DNA of 64,000 nt. Source: Lacibacter sp. H407 (GTDB taxonomy: Bacteria > Bacteroidota > Bacteroidia > Chitinophagales > Chitinophagaceae). The stretch covers positions 1,798,001 through 1,862,000 of the forward strand of contig NZ_JBBKTU010000001.1 of NCBI RefSeq assembly GCF_037892605.1. Reading direction: 5' to 3'. Below the pieces are notes generated by a model. It did not search any database. It was given only the letters and a program-made list of their open reading frames with translations, and was not told the origin of the DNA. The position numbers and the translations under genes are program-made. This document shows, piece by piece, positions 10,246-18,139 of the stretch. Position 1 is the stretch's first letter, and the number at the start of each line of letters is the position of its first letter.

Positions 10246-10408
10246 GAGCGATCTTGGTTTTACAGTGAGAGATCATCGCGGCTTCTTCAATTTACGAAAT
10301 AACCTTCGTTGTTGCAAGAGGGTGAGAATGAAAGCTGATGAAAAAAAGTAAAAAATATTAGGAAAATTGAAAAGGAGTTTTTAAGTTTAGTATCTAAACC
10401 TAACAATT

Positions 10409-10448
10409 ATGAAAAAACATCTCCAAGCAGCTTTTGCTGTTTTTTTTT
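10409..10448 (+). other. Out-of-frame lipoprotein signal start and T9 homopolymer
   Basis: ATG at 10409 begins MKKHLQAAFAVFF and then meets a run of nine T (10440-10448). Read as written, the frame stops shortly afterwards. With eight T it joins exactly the downstream frame FTFTLISSC, giving a textbook lipoprotein signal peptide with lipobox LISSC. The tract is therefore a natural slippage point, a sequencing indel, or a disabling mutation. Confidence 0.75.
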
Positions 10449-11561
10449 ACTTTCACTTTGATATCTTCTTGTCAAAAAAACTCACGACATCATGACCTCT
10501 TGACTCAGGAATCTGGTTCCAAATTGACAATATCTATTGCTAGAGAGTGGTTTAATAATATTTACCAACAAGGCAATTCTTCAATTGGTTTAAAAAATCA
10601 AAAAAAAGAATTTAGCCATATTGAAGTAGTATGGGACAAATCACATGCCTTTGAAGATGATGAATTTTGGGTAGTCGAATCACCTTTATTGGAATCCACA
10701 GTACATTATTTGAAATTCAGGAATGATGATTTTCACGAAAGCGAACCAAGGTTATTGATTTTAAAGGATAAAAAAAAGGGAAATATTTTTTGTATAAAAA
10801 TGAATATTCAATCTAATACCACAAGTGAGTATAACCAAGGTTTTTATAAAAATGTTCCGAAAGATTTTTCTGGATCAGTATTTTTCTCAAGTTTAAAGAA
10901 TCAAATTATTTGTGGCTGGGAGTATAAAAATGGTGGCACAACTAGACAAATAAAACCAATTGGAAAAAAGGTTAACAGTAGAATTGACGATCCCAATAAT
11001 GACTGTATAACATATATAGTTGATACTTATGAGCGTACATGTTTTGATAATTATTGCAGTGAATGGACTTTAGTGAACTCTCAAGAAGTTAATACTTGCC
11101 CAAATTCAGGTGGAAGTGGCGGTGCATTCGAAGATGTCGACGAAATTATTTTAAATAACTTTAAGGAGAATTTCGAAATGATAGCTACCGCAAAAGATAT
11201 CGTTTCAACAACTATTTCTGTAAATGATACGCTTAGAGTAAAACGATACAAGTGGATTGCGGCAGAAGCAGCCACTATAGTAGCTCAAAGTTCAGAAATA
11301 GGTCATCATAGGAGATCAGGTCCGAATGTTAGCAACTGGACTTGGAAATCTTTAGCACATGAAAGGGTTCAGGTTCTCGGAATTATTATAGGGGGGTCTG
11401 TTAGTATTACAAATGATATTGGATACCCCACTATTGGCACTTATAATTCAGCCATGTCTCTAGCATTTACAACAAATTACTCGTGTATAATTCCCAATAA
11501 ATCCCCCATCTCTTGGTCAATGGAGTATAATACAACGGCATATATTAATATTAATGATTAA
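10434..11561 (+). CDS. Hypothetical lipoprotein, 5' end frameshifted
   Basis: A long open frame of unknown function; the only start in frame is TTG at 10434, inside what should be the hydrophobic core of the signal peptide. The real start is probably ATG 10409, one base out of frame across a T9 tract. After the lipobox cysteine the product is hydrophilic, with four cysteines in a C-I-T-Y...TCFDNYCSEW...NTC stretch (about residues 185-225) that could form disulfides, then a GGSGG linker and an unrecognised C-terminal domain of about 150 residues. Base composition is markedly more AT-rich than in gpsA or hemW, suggesting accessory DNA. The following gene starts 12 bases downstream. Confidence 0.6.
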   Translation: MLFFFTFTLISSCQKNSRHHDLLTQESGSKLTISIAREWFNNIYQQGNSSIGLKNQKKEFSHIEVVWDKSHAFEDDEFWVVESPLLESTVHYLKFRNDDFHESEPRLLILKDKKKGNIFCIKMNIQSNTTSEYNQGFYKNVPKDFSGSVFFSSLKNQIICGWEYKNGGTTRQIKPIGKKVNSRIDDPNNDCITYIVDTYERTCFDNYCSEWTLVNSQEVNTCPNSGGSGGAFEDVDEIILNNFKENFEMIATAKDIVSTTISVNDTLRVKRYKWIAAEAATIVAQSSEIGHHRRSGPNVSNWTWKSLAHERVQVLGIIIGGSVSITNDIGYPTIGTYNSAMSLAFTTNYSCIIPNKSPISWSMEYNTTAYININD

Positions 11562-11573
11562 TGTGAATTCAAT

Positions 11574-12362
11574 ATGAAAGTTCTGTTTTTGATTTTACTA
11601 GTGCTTGGTTATCTGATTAGTGGCTCTTGCTATAATGCAAAAAAAATGAAAATTGAAAACAGAACTTTCATATTAAGAACACAGTTTACGGTTGTAGGGA
11701 TAAAAAATGATACTGTGTTTGTAAACAAAATAGAGGATAGTGTTTTTATTAAGGAGTATCATGGATTTCGAGTGATATTGACTTCAGTATTAGAAAGCAC
11801 ATCCAGATTGGATTTTGATAGGGCTGGAAATTTTTTAGGACAAAGTGCTATGGGTGGTCAAACAAGAAAATATATTCTTAATGTCATTAAGAAAAGTGAC
11901 AGTCTTGGTAATCGATATTATGATATGAAGTTATCTAATATTAGATCTTTTTCTAGTGACTCGTTCTACAGGGTAAAACTATTCAAAGGAGTAGATTTTT
12001 TTGATCCTGAGTTATACAAGGAGGTGAAATCAGAAACTTTCTCTGATGAAAGTATAGTAAATACATATTTACCTACAAATAGTACAAGTAAGGAAAAAAT
12101 TGATACTTTGCGATTTCATTTTACAAAGCGTACGTATAACGATTTTATTTCGTTTTCTACTTTTTTAGAAGATAAACAAAAAATGAAAATAAATAGAGTT
12201 GAGTATTCATTCAAAGAGGATGAAGTTACTTATAGTCCCCGTATAATACCTATGCGACAGATGATATGGGAATTGGTTGAAACGGAAAAAATACCTAATG
12301 AAGAGGCTATAAATAGATTTCTGAGTGACAGTTTGAAGCTGAAAACTTATGCTAAGATGTGA
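11574..12362 (+). CDS. Hypothetical lipoprotein
   Basis: A 262-aa protein of unknown function. The N-terminus MKVLFLILLVLGYLISGSC is a lipoprotein signal with the cysteine at residue 19. The mature part is hydrophilic and rich in beta-forming residues, with no recognised domain. It starts 12 bases after the frameshifted lipoprotein gene and shares its AT-rich composition, so the two are probably co-transcribed and may work together at the cell envelope. Its 3' end overlaps the convergent hemW stop region by 11 bases. Confidence 0.7.
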   Translation: MKVLFLILLVLGYLISGSCYNAKKMKIENRTFILRTQFTVVGIKNDTVFVNKIEDSVFIKEYHGFRVILTSVLESTSRLDFDRAGNFLGQSAMGGQTRKYILNVIKKSDSLGNRYYDMKLSNIRSFSSDSFYRVKLFKGVDFFDPELYKEVKSETFSDESIVNTYLPTNSTSKEKIDTLRFHFTKRTYNDFISFSTFLEDKQKMKINRVEYSFKEDEVTYSPRIIPMRQMIWELVETEKIPNEEAINRFLSDSLKLKTYAKM

Positions 12363-14302: not shown

Positions 14303-17300
14303 ATGAAGAAAAAATTACTTTTTGTATTATTTGCGATTGCCTGTCTGTATAGCTCAGCACAACAGGTTTATCGGGAAGATTTTGAGTCTGCAAACATCGG
14401 GGATAATGGTAGTCTGTTAGGCTGGAACAGTTTCTTTGACAGGGGAGCTAGTAGAGTGGTTCAAGGCAGTGTCGGCAATACTTCAAAGGTTCTTTTGGCT
14501 TCAAACTCCGTTGGCGGCGATCATTTTTTAAGATCTCCGTTATTTGAAATACAAGGTGGAAAAAGTTATACAATCAAGTTTGATATTTCTTTGTCGAATG
14601 CCGTTTATCTTATTCGTATACGTACGGAAGACAATCTTGGAAACAATACCCTTATGCCTATTTCAGGGGTTAGCTTAAGTACTACCAATGGCACGGTAAA
14701 CAATGCAAATGCGTCAAGAATAGAAAACCTGACACCTAATGTGTTTGGTACCACAACAGTTACATTTATAGCTCCTCCGGGGCAAACCAAGGCACAATTA
14801 CAGATTTATCAGTTTGGGATAAACAGTTTTATGTTGGACAATGTATTTGTGGATAGCAAAACATTGGGTTATTGGCAATCTGAAGCTGAACTTGGTGTAC
14901 TTGCTGGTAATGCCTCTGCAACTTCGGGATGTACCAACGCATCCGGTGGTTCATTTGTGAACTTAGAAAAAGAAAGTGGAAATACCTTAACTTTTAATGA
15001 TGTTTCGGTGAGTGAGGCAGGTACCTACAGCCTTAACACGAAGTATTTTTATAACGGGGGCGATAGCTATTTATCCTTTTTTGTAAATGGGGTTTTTGTA
15101 AAGCAGGTTTTGGTAAAACAAGCACCTTGGTGCTTTCAGGCGCCTGCAACGTCCACCAGGGTTGAATTGCCACTCAAAAAGGGAATCAATTCGATTAAGG
15201 TTGCCCCATCTCAAGGAAAACCTTCACCATTTTTAGACCGATTTGAGCTAAGTGAAAAACCTGTGAACGATTGGTTTTCTGAAGCTGAAGCAGGTTCTCT
15301 GTCCGGTGCTGGTTCGCAAATCATAACAGGCTGTACAAATGCCTCGAACAGTTCTTTTGTCAACTTGTACGGATCAACAAATAATCGTTTGTCGTTTAAT
15401 AATGTTACTGTACCGGAGGCTGGCTATTACAAATTAAACTTTGCTTATTTCGGGATTACTGAAGGGCAAAGCTTGAATGTTTTGGTGAATGGAAGCTCAA
15501 AAACAATTTCTTCAATTAAAACCGGAAGTCTGTGTAGGGATGGTGGAGCTTTGTTTGAAAGTGTTTTAATTGAATTTAATGCAGGTGTCAACACTTTGGA
15601 ATTTAAACCTATTGGTGGCAACGTAACCACGCCTTCTATCGACTGGTTGGAGTTAATTAAATTTACTCCTGCTACCATTAATCTTGCTTTGACAAAGCAA
15701 CGTTTGATGCCCGGTGAAACCATTGTTATTATGGCGAAAAGTGATATCCCTGTGAATGGAGACAATTCTTTTCAATTTAGTATAACGGGAATCGATCCGT
15801 CAGACTATTCGGTTAGCAATACTGAAATAATTATTGGGTTAGGAAAATCTGTAGGTGCTGTTTCTTTTACGCCAAATAAAGGAATTGGTGAGAAATCAAT
15901 ACAAATAACATTAACGGGAACTACTTCAAAAGATGTGGTGCTGGGTAACAGGCTAAGTAATAATGCTGAAATTACCACTATTCCTAAAACTTTTTATGTT
16001 AGCTCTTCTGAAGGTGACGATAGTAATGATGGTAAATCGGAAGCAACTCCGTTAAAAACACTTGCAAGGGTTACCGAATTGGGTCAAATTACCGGTGACG
16101 ATATTCTTTTTAAAACCGGCGATGTTTTTAACGGCCAATTGGTTATTTCTGCCAGCGGAGTTGAAAACGATCCGATTGTGGTAAGCAGTTACGGTGAAGG
16201 AGATAAACCGTTATTGAATGGAAGTAATGCTCCCGATGGTAAAGGTTCGTATCTGGAAGTTATTCGTGTTGAAAATCGGGATAATATTCAAATTAAAAAT
16301 TTAGCCATCACAAATCCAAGAAGTAGTTCCCGTGAAGGCGTCCCTGATTCGGAAAGCTTCGGCATTTACCTGTTAAACTCAGGAACTGAAAAATTGGAGA
16401 ATTTTGTATTTAAAAATCTTACCATTACCAATGTTTTTTCTGTTTCGAATATTAATGATGTTCCTTTTGATGCAATAAGGGTAACAGGTATTTTTGCTGA
16501 AACGGACAATAGTCACCCGGGCTCTGTAAAGTATATTGAAGATGTTTTGGTCGAAGATTGTTATTTCTCCAGAATTGGGAAGTTAGGTTTTTGGTCGAGA
16601 CGGATATTTTCACCCAATGAAATCCTTGACAGGGAATCCATAAAAAATCGTGATGTTATTTTCAGAAACAATACTGTTTTTGAAAATGGGGGGTCTGGTA
16701 TTGTACTGTCAAGCACAGCGAATGCGCTTGTGGAATCTAATATTTTTGAGTTCACAGGTTCAGGGGTTGTTCCAAATAAAATGACTGCCCGTGGCAGCGG
16801 TGCTTGGTTTTTTCAGAGTACCGATGTCGTTGCTCAATATAATATTTCCAGACATGCCCGTGGAAGTAATGACTCTTATGGAATGCATATTGATTATGGT
16901 AATAAAAATATTTTATTTCAGTATAACTACTCTGAAGATTCTGAAGGTGGCTTTGTGGAAATATTGGGTGACAATATTAACAGTATCTGGAGATATAACA
17001 TTAGTGTGAATGACGGGTTGAGGCAACGAAAAGGAAATACGTTATGGATATCAGATTTTGCTGGTACCAGAAGTATTAGGTCTTCCAAAAATTATATTTA
17101 TAATAATTCAGTTTACGTGGGGAACGGTTTAACGCCCGATATTTCCATAGAATCCAATGATGCTTACATATATAACAATATATTCCAGTCGGTTAATGGC
17201 TCAAAAATAGGAGAGGAATATATTTTGGATACTAAAGAAGGAACCTTAGATATTTCAAATAACATTTTTGATGGGGATATAAATACTGTTTTTAAGGGTC

Positions 17301-18139
17301 TTGATACAAAAGCGGTAATAGCTGATCCAAAATATGTGGAGCCAGGAAAATTGGAGGCTGCTGGCTACAGGCTTTTCAAAAATAGTCCGGCCCTTAAGAA
17401 TAGGGAAGAAAAACCGCACCCCTCTTTTCCGGCAGCCGGCACCGGTATCTTTGCCCATATTTCTGAGGAACCAACTACAGATTTCTTTGGGAATTCCCTT
17501 TTTGATGAATATGGAGCGCCGCTCACGCCAATTGGTGCGTATGCTGGAAAAGGTTTAAAAGTTGATAAGTTGATTGTAGTGGCAGATTGTGGTGCCCCTT
17601 CTGAAAATACTGTCAAGTGGGCTGTTAAGAACCCAAATGATTTTTCGGTATTAGTTAATTGGAAGGTATTGGAATCTGGTGAAACAGGATCAATACTTGC
17701 CCTTCCCGGAGATAGTTTCATCGAAACACAAAAAGTAATGGGTATGGATATTCAAACTCTTGAAATATCGTGGAACGATGAAAAAGGGAAATTAGGTATC
17801 ACAAAAAATGACACGAAAGAGTGCACTAAAATTTCTAATAAAACAACTTCTTTTTCAGAAGAAGATATTCCGGATTATTTGGAAGTGATTTATCCCAATC
17901 CTGTCAGTAAAAATGGAATCTTGAATTTATTAATTTCTTCCAAAGTTAATAGACAAGCTATTATTCAGATTTATGGACTTGATGGAAGAATCATCAAAAA
18001 TGAAAATAGACAAGTAAATGCAGGGAAAACCCTTGTTCAAATTAATTTGAATGAGTATGATTTAAGAGAGAATACAATTGTTGCTCTTAAAGTAACGATC
18101 GGCGAAAAAAAGTTTACCAGGAAAATTATAATTCAATAA
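14303..18139 (+). CDS. Secreted right-handed beta-helix protein with type IX sorting domain
   Basis: A 1278-aa multidomain exported protein, probably a polysaccharide lyase or hydrolase. Order: signal peptide (residues 1-19, ending SSAQQ); a jelly-roll region (about 20-190, VYREDFES...FMLDNVFVDS); two related CBM6/35-like modules (about 191-325 and 326-450, each opening SEAE and containing GCTNAS and SFVNL); a short beta-sandwich linker (about 455-560); a right-handed parallel beta-helix beginning FYVSSSEGDDSNDGKSEATPL (about 565-1010); and a C-terminal type IX sorting domain (about 1190-1278, with YPNPVSKNG and a final KFTRKIIIQ). The sorting domain ties it to the GldKLMN machinery encoded at 26.7-31.6 kb. 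No catalytic triad can be assigned by eye. AT-rich coding and flanking gaps suggest horizontal origin. Confidence 0.88.
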   Translation: MKKKLLFVLFAIACLYSSAQQVYREDFESANIGDNGSLLGWNSFFDRGASRVVQGSVGNTSKVLLASNSVGGDHFLRSPLFEIQGGKSYTIKFDISLSNAVYLIRIRTEDNLGNNTLMPISGVSLSTTNGTVNNANASRIENLTPNVFGTTTVTFIAPPGQTKAQLQIYQFGINSFMLDNVFVDSKTLGYWQSEAELGVLAGNASATSGCTNASGGSFVNLEKESGNTLTFNDVSVSEAGTYSLNTKYFYNGGDSYLSFFVNGVFVKQVLVKQAPWCFQAPATSTRVELPLKKGINSIKVAPSQGKPSPFLDRFELSEKPVNDWFSEAEAGSLSGAGSQIITGCTNASNSSFVNLYGSTNNRLSFNNVTVPEAGYYKLNFAYFGITEGQSLNVLVNGSSKTISSIKTGSLCRDGGALFESVLIEFNAGVNTLEFKPIGGNVTTPSIDWLELIKFTPATINLALTKQRLMPGETIVIMAKSDIPVNGDNSFQFSITGIDPSDYSVSNTEIIIGLGKSVGAVSFTPNKGIGEKSIQITLTGTTSKDVVLGNRLSNNAEITTIPKTFYVSSSEGDDSNDGKSEATPLKTLARVTELGQITGDDILFKTGDVFNGQLVISASGVENDPIVVSSYGEGDKPLLNGSNAPDGKGSYLEVIRVENRDNIQIKNLAITNPRSSSREGVPDSESFGIYLLNSGTEKLENFVFKNLTITNVFSVSNINDVPFDAIRVTGIFAETDNSHPGSVKYIEDVLVEDCYFSRIGKLGFWSRRIFSPNEILDRESIKNRDVIFRNNTVFENGGSGIVLSSTANALVESNIFEFTGSGVVPNKMTARGSGAWFFQSTDVVAQYNISRHARGSNDSYGMHIDYGNKNILFQYNYSEDSEGGFVEILGDNINSIWRYNISVNDGLRQRKGNTLWISDFAGTRSIRSSKNYIYNNSVYVGNGLTPDISIESNDAYIYNNIFQSVNGSKIGEEYILDTKEGTLDISNNIFDGDINTVFKGLDTKAVIADPKYVEPGKLEAAGYRLFKNSPALKNREEKPHPSFPAAGTGIFAHISEEPTTDFFGNSLFDEYGAPLTPIGAYAGKGLKVDKLIVVADCGAPSENTVKWAVKNPNDFSVLVNWKVLESGETGSILALPGDSFIETQKVMGMDIQTLEISWNDEKGKLGITKNDTKECTKISNKTTSFSEEDIPDYLEVIYPNPVSKNGILNLLISSKVNRQAIIQIYGLDGRIIKNENRQVNAGKTLVQINLNEYDLRENTIVALKVTIGEKKFTRKIIIQ

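Follow-up and report, generated by a model that had tools for sequence, protein, structure and literature searches.

A T9 tract places a lipoprotein gene of Lacibacter sp. H407 out of frame: a candidate for slipped-strand phase variation in a Chitinophagaceae family

The window, the whole 64,000-nucleotide stretch of the Lacibacter sp. H407 genome analysed here, contains a lipoprotein gene whose reading is interrupted by a homopolymer shortly behind its start (Table 1). In the present T9 reading, the ATG at 10409-10411 opens the sequence MKKHLQAAFAVFF followed by YFHF…, and the TGA at 10493-10495 ends the frame after 28 codons. The positions of ATG, T9 and TGA thus confirm the initial annotation in that the tract puts a lipoprotein signal with the lipobox LISSC out of frame. 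When the length of the tract was changed, T8 yielded a protein of 383 aa (MKKHLQAAFAVFFTFTLISSC; N-terminus MKKHLQAAFAVFFTFTLISSCQKN) and T11 one of 384 aa, while only the 28-codon ORF resulted from T9 and products of 16-17 aa from T7 or T10. Deletion of one T therefore joins the frames as originally proposed, but it is not the only change to do so, since the addition of two T works too. Only in the T8 and T11 readings is there an N-terminus of the signal peptidase II type as judged by eye, consisting of an n-region with Lys/Arg, a hydrophobic core and the lipobox. The lipobox cysteine is residue 21 in the T8 reading and, when counted by eye, likewise in L002 (MKKTAFISGVSIMLMMLCFSC), the nearest homologue with an intact gene.

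Ahead of the lipobox, the long frame from 10413 to 11561 contains no ATG and, as the only possible internal start, the TTG at 10434 (MLFFFTFTLISSC). We consider initiation there unlikely: the resulting n-region would lack a positive charge, and the ATG at 10409 has both the upstream motif of the family and an MKK beginning. Loose TAAACC-like motifs were found 5' of 17 of 23 family starts compared to 3 of 28 starts of SusD genes, which represent an imperfect control because SusD genes are usually preceded by SusC. The ATG at 10409 is supported as the start because such a motif lies 8 nt upstream, as in the intact members. The remainder of the gene is intact, as a 382-codon frame stays open and the family profile is matched over its full length. 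There is good support for reading positions 10409-11561 as one lipoprotein gene whose frame is shifted by a tract, in line with the earlier claim of a single gene: the lipobox cysteine is invariant in the family, the start motif is shared and the restored signal is as long as that of the nearest homologue. Surface exposure of the protein is presumed from its lipoprotein class only.

Table 1. Features of the lipoprotein locus, in positions of the window
Feature	Position	Strand	Remarks
TAAACC motif	10395..10400	+	8 nt 5' of ATG 10409; common to intact family members
Present T9 reading	10409..10495	+	28 codons, MKKHLQAAFAVFFYFHFDIFLSKKLTTS, then TGA
Long open lipoprotein frame	10413..11561	+	382 codons between stops; 375 aa if read from TTG 10434
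Hairpin AAGCAGC-UUUU-GCUGUUU	10425..10442	+	terminator-like, within coding region; leads into U tract
T9 homopolymer	10440..10448	+	31 nt past ATG start; long frame needs one T fewer
LISSC lipobox	10458..10472	+	carries the family's invariant lipidated Cys
Partner gene	11574..12362	+	lipoprotein of 262 aa (MKVLFLILLVLGYLISGSC); without match in Pfam, NCBIfam or PADLOC

Two other genomes carry weak homologues of the partner gene directly 3' of family members (at L011 in G165 and L013 in G145), and because of this adjacency the two genes may form an old, conserved unit. An AlphaFold2 model of the lipoprotein, based on a 13-row alignment, had a mean pLDDT of 71; its C-terminal beta domain (residues 250-375) is predicted well, a beta domain at the N-terminus with less certainty. 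Fold searches gave no standout match (best E value of 0.04 with Foldseek, best Z score of 5.9 with VIA-align), and the protein had no match in NCBIfam or PADLOC, nor in Pfam above the cut-off. Because no family or fold match stands out, we make no functional claim beyond that of a lipoprotein. Further along the window, positions 14303-18139 code for a protein of 1278 aa with CBM35 domains, a match to right-handed beta-helix proteins and a weak C-terminal match to Por_Secre_tail.

Whole-genome searches within the same bacterial family recovered relatives of the lipoprotein in 17 of 396 genomes when the single protein was used as query and in 67 of 396 with a profile; this bacterial family is the Chitinophagaceae, as one of its genomes is a Filimonas MAG. 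Scans of genome contigs gave no relatives with the single protein and three with the alignment, and a plasmid collection contained no match. The alignment of 13 members (profile A1) exhibits four invariant columns, corresponding to C13 (the lipobox cysteine), W274, S286 and H309 of the window protein, which shares the lipobox cysteine and the conserved W, S, H and C positions of the family and is 36% identical to its nearest homologue. Searches in the genera around the genomes G339 and G296 produced homologues at only about 26-34% identity, yet these exposed members with poly-C tracts. The poly-C relatives are distant from the window protein (about 16-25% identity), and we regard the two subgroups as homologous because of a profile comparison by hhalign (probability 97.6, E value 3.9e-12). 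Judged by these comparisons, the lipoprotein is a member of an unnamed, uncharacterised and patchily distributed family of the Chitinophagaceae. Within its own genus, the lipoprotein had no match in nine sampled other genomes, and the partner gene had no detectable homologue in the 13 other genomes searched; on this distribution, the lipoprotein gene is accessory. The comparison of sister strains suggested by the initial annotation was run on sister species, where the other genus genomes searched contained no orthologue.

Most family members are readable from the start into the lipobox, but nine others besides the window gene are blocked by a homopolymer between the ATG and the core of the signal peptide. 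They belong to seven genomes and carry tracts of T7 (G052), C7 (G296), C8 (G339), G12 (G042), C9 (G705), C10 and C7 (G362), and C12 and C15 (G646); the G042 case is less certain, as translation of the frame could also begin at an internal ATG within the G tract, and several of the poly-C relatives derive from fragmented assemblies. In all ten broken members, including that of the window, a change by one base, or the equivalent change by two bases in the opposite direction, restores an ORF of 201-495 aa; the one-base repair is a loss in seven of the ten and a gain in three. The control consisted of SusD lipoproteins from the same eight genomes, of which 28 had a usable start. In all of them, the sequence from start to lipobox is intact and free of G/C runs of at least six, so that 9 of 13 family members are tract-broken vs. 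none of the 28 SusD lipoproteins (Fisher p = 2e-6, an indicative value, as the 9 of 13 were counted post hoc and two genomes contribute two broken members each). The few frame breaks in the mature regions of family members (L124, L171, L260/L283) are not located at tracts. There are also intact members without tracts, and two members (L008 and L144) carry a T9 in frame.

The ON frame was seen neither among the ten tract-broken members nor among those with G/C tracts, although random tract lengths would place about a third there. Tracts of G or C in the signal region were never found ON, either at L167, L168, L169, L171, L172, L119, L108 and L113 or at the readable loci outside the family. Such a bias may indicate that natural populations mostly hold these genes OFF. 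The tracts outside the family occur in G646 and G042, which contain poly-C runs of 9-13 directly after or within the signal sequences of unrelated exported proteins (L194, L205 and L217 in G042; L206 and, twice, L213 in G646), all of them out of frame. In cytoplasmic genes, poly-G tracts mostly keep the frame, e.g., in those for shikimate kinase and chorismate synthase (named by eye from the sequence). In addition, a C11 tract in G339 (L180, contig C110) and a G12 tract in G296 (L195, contig C119) are located shortly 5' of signal-bearing genes, an arrangement known from phase variation of the promoter type. Taken together, out-of-frame poly-C tracts in genes for exported proteins and tracts upstream of signal-bearing genes are arranged as in contingency loci. 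Some poly-C runs of 13-17 coincide with contig ends or N gaps (L216 in contig C78 and L218 in contig C282 of G042; L292 in contig C162 of G292), which would follow from a mixture of tract lengths in the sequenced population or from a failure of assembly at the run. No G/C contingency tract is present in the genome of Lacibacter sp. H407, as far as the ten G/C tracts of at least seven bases are concerned.

The T9 at 10440-10448 is the only T9 or A9 in the 64 kb of the window, compared to an average of 12.3 in dinucleotide shuffles. A scan of the window for frame joins at tracts of at least six bases gave many trivial out-of-frame ATGs in known genes and is not used as evidence. The host genome (4.87 Mb in 4 contigs, nearly complete) contains 72 A/T tracts of at least nine and 10 G/C tracts of at least seven bases, and each of these 82 tracts was examined for frames that the gain or loss of one or two bases would connect. 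An evident gene is broken only by the T9 at 10440-10448; the other tracts within evident genes are in frame, including T9 or A9 tracts in the signal peptides of L056, L064, L082 and L083, and the few tracts that allow a longer ORF at changed length are intergenic or 5' of an intact gene, as judged by eye. A systematic homopolymer error of the assembly was rejected because the 71 other A/T and the 10 G/C tracts disrupt no evident gene. It is also very improbable that a single sequencing or assembly error hides a real T8 and a simply intact gene: the gene is perfect at T8, but with no other gene broken at any of these tracts, the sole error would have to coincide with a family repeatedly broken at tracts. 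The sequencing indel put forward initially as an alternative has thus become unlikely. Fixed loss deserves more weight, although we judge it to be clearly the lesser prospect compared with switching. It would imply that one slip at the T9 inactivated the gene in this lineage and set it on the way to a pseudogene, the tract being merely a weak point. This would agree with an accessory gene for which the search of other genomes of the genus found no full relative, and with the in-frame state of all other long in-gene tracts of the genome, such that only a dispensable gene shows a slip. However, the other 375 codons are intact with no second disruption seen, and so is the partner gene. In addition, nine other members of the family are interrupted by tracts within one short region they have in common and never at tracts elsewhere in the gene, a pattern that random decay does not predict.

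Another mechanism is suggested by the hairpin ahead of the T9, which has 7 bp and a stability of -8.2 kcal/mol (z score of -3.9) and is the most stable one before any T9 of the genome, barring eight of terminator-grade stability. RNA polymerase might slip on the U9 with the aid of this hairpin, so that a fraction of mRNA with U8 would provide low amounts of the lipoprotein from a fixed T9; alternatively, hairpin and U9 might act as an attenuator. A stable 7-bp hairpin directly abutting the U tract and a homopolymer of at least eight bases, which is a typical slippage site (PMC3711429), would fit such a mechanism, but no comparable hairpin occurs in the other tract-bearing family members examined and it therefore does not explain the family. 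Because most members contain C or G tracts and three of the ten need the opposite shift, a shared programmed slip is unlikely as well, and we regard transcriptional slippage or attenuation as rather improbable. The best explanation, which we hold to be somewhat better than an even bet, is slipped-strand phase variation of a gene that was caught by the assembly in its OFF state. The locus has a 5' homopolymer that sets the frame, the rest of the gene is intact, and nine relatives have runs of T, C or G, 7-15 bases long, in the corresponding region. One-base slipped-strand mispairing would be the simplest mechanism to fit all ten members, whatever the tract base.

According to this preferred model of phase variation, slippage of DNA polymerase by slipped-strand mispairing would alter the tract between start codon and lipobox by one base. 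With T8 or T11, the gene would be ON and the ribosome would proceed into the signal peptide, the lipobox and the mature protein, while T9 would represent the OFF state of the sequenced genome, in which translation ends after 28 codons. The tract would then flip back and forth in Lacibacter sp. H407, ON cells would display a lipoprotein at the outer membrane or surface, and switching might be under selection because it varies the cell surface, perhaps as a defence against phages, predators or grazers. The initial proposal of a phase-variable lipoprotein is strengthened at the level of the family by nine further tract-broken members and intact SusD controls, but for the window gene itself we infer switching of the T9 from the habit of the family. 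Several observations count against a switch. The other A/T tracts of at least nine bases in signal peptides of the genome are in frame and the genome contains no G/C contingency tracts; the poly-C relatives are distant and none of the tract-broken members was seen ON. As the in-frame T9 members L008 and L144 indicate, a T9 within the signal peptide does not necessarily represent a switch. Tracts of A or T are usually more stable than those of G or C. For comparable tracts, PMC2831843 gives switch rates of about 1e-4 (A9 to A8, swrA of B. subtilis) and 3e-4 (T8 to T7, flhA of C. coli).

The closest known parallel is P78 of Mycoplasma fermentans, a surface lipoprotein that switches through the gain or loss of bases in a short A/T homopolymer early in its coding sequence (Theiss and Wise 1997, as related in PMC3711429 and PMC2831843). 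As described there, its switching was seen experimentally, and it differs in belonging to a mycoplasma, in its poly-A tract and in its location in an ABC-transporter operon; the proteins are unrelated as far as known. Poly-G/C genes of Neisseria and Helicobacter as well as swrA (A8/A9) and flhA (T7/T8) likewise contain early coding tracts of 7-15 bases whose length decides the frame (PMC2831843), whereas here a Bacteroidota lipoprotein family carries the tract in or just before the signal peptide and variation is deduced from relatives only. For Bacteroidota, phase variation has been proposed for the FSD adhesin genes of Ornithobacterium hominis (PMC13183296), surface genes that belong to another gene family. 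Programmed transcriptional realignment, e.g., in some dnaX genes, also involves a homopolymer of at least eight bases at the frame junction (PMC3711429), but the window family has neither a conserved hairpin nor a conserved tract type and needs more than one class of frame shift. In the literature we found, phase variation in Bacteroidota mostly proceeds by DNA inversion, e.g., of capsule promoters, and a search of the non-subscription literature returned no paper linking Chitinophagaceae with homopolymer phase variation. The mechanism is already known from other bacteria; neither the gene family nor its reliance on more than one tract base seems to have been described in the literature searched.

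More generally, we tentatively propose, with somewhat less than even confidence, that free-living Chitinophagaceae maintain a dispersed repertoire of lipoprotein genes that is OFF in most cells and switched by homopolymers within the signal peptide or promoter or adjacent to them, with a lineage-specific tract base (C in one genus, T here), as contingency loci similar to those of mucosal pathogens. If true, homopolymer-switched lipoproteins would add a second route of surface variation in environmental Chitinophagaceae, possibly directed against phages or grazers. It would also account for such genes looking broken in assemblies, where annotation may miss them.

The genome of Lacibacter sp. 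H407 contains a second, distant member of the family (L130, G000:C1:2126815-2132823), which is intact with an apparent GTG start and has a T9 tract about 20 nt 5' of this codon.
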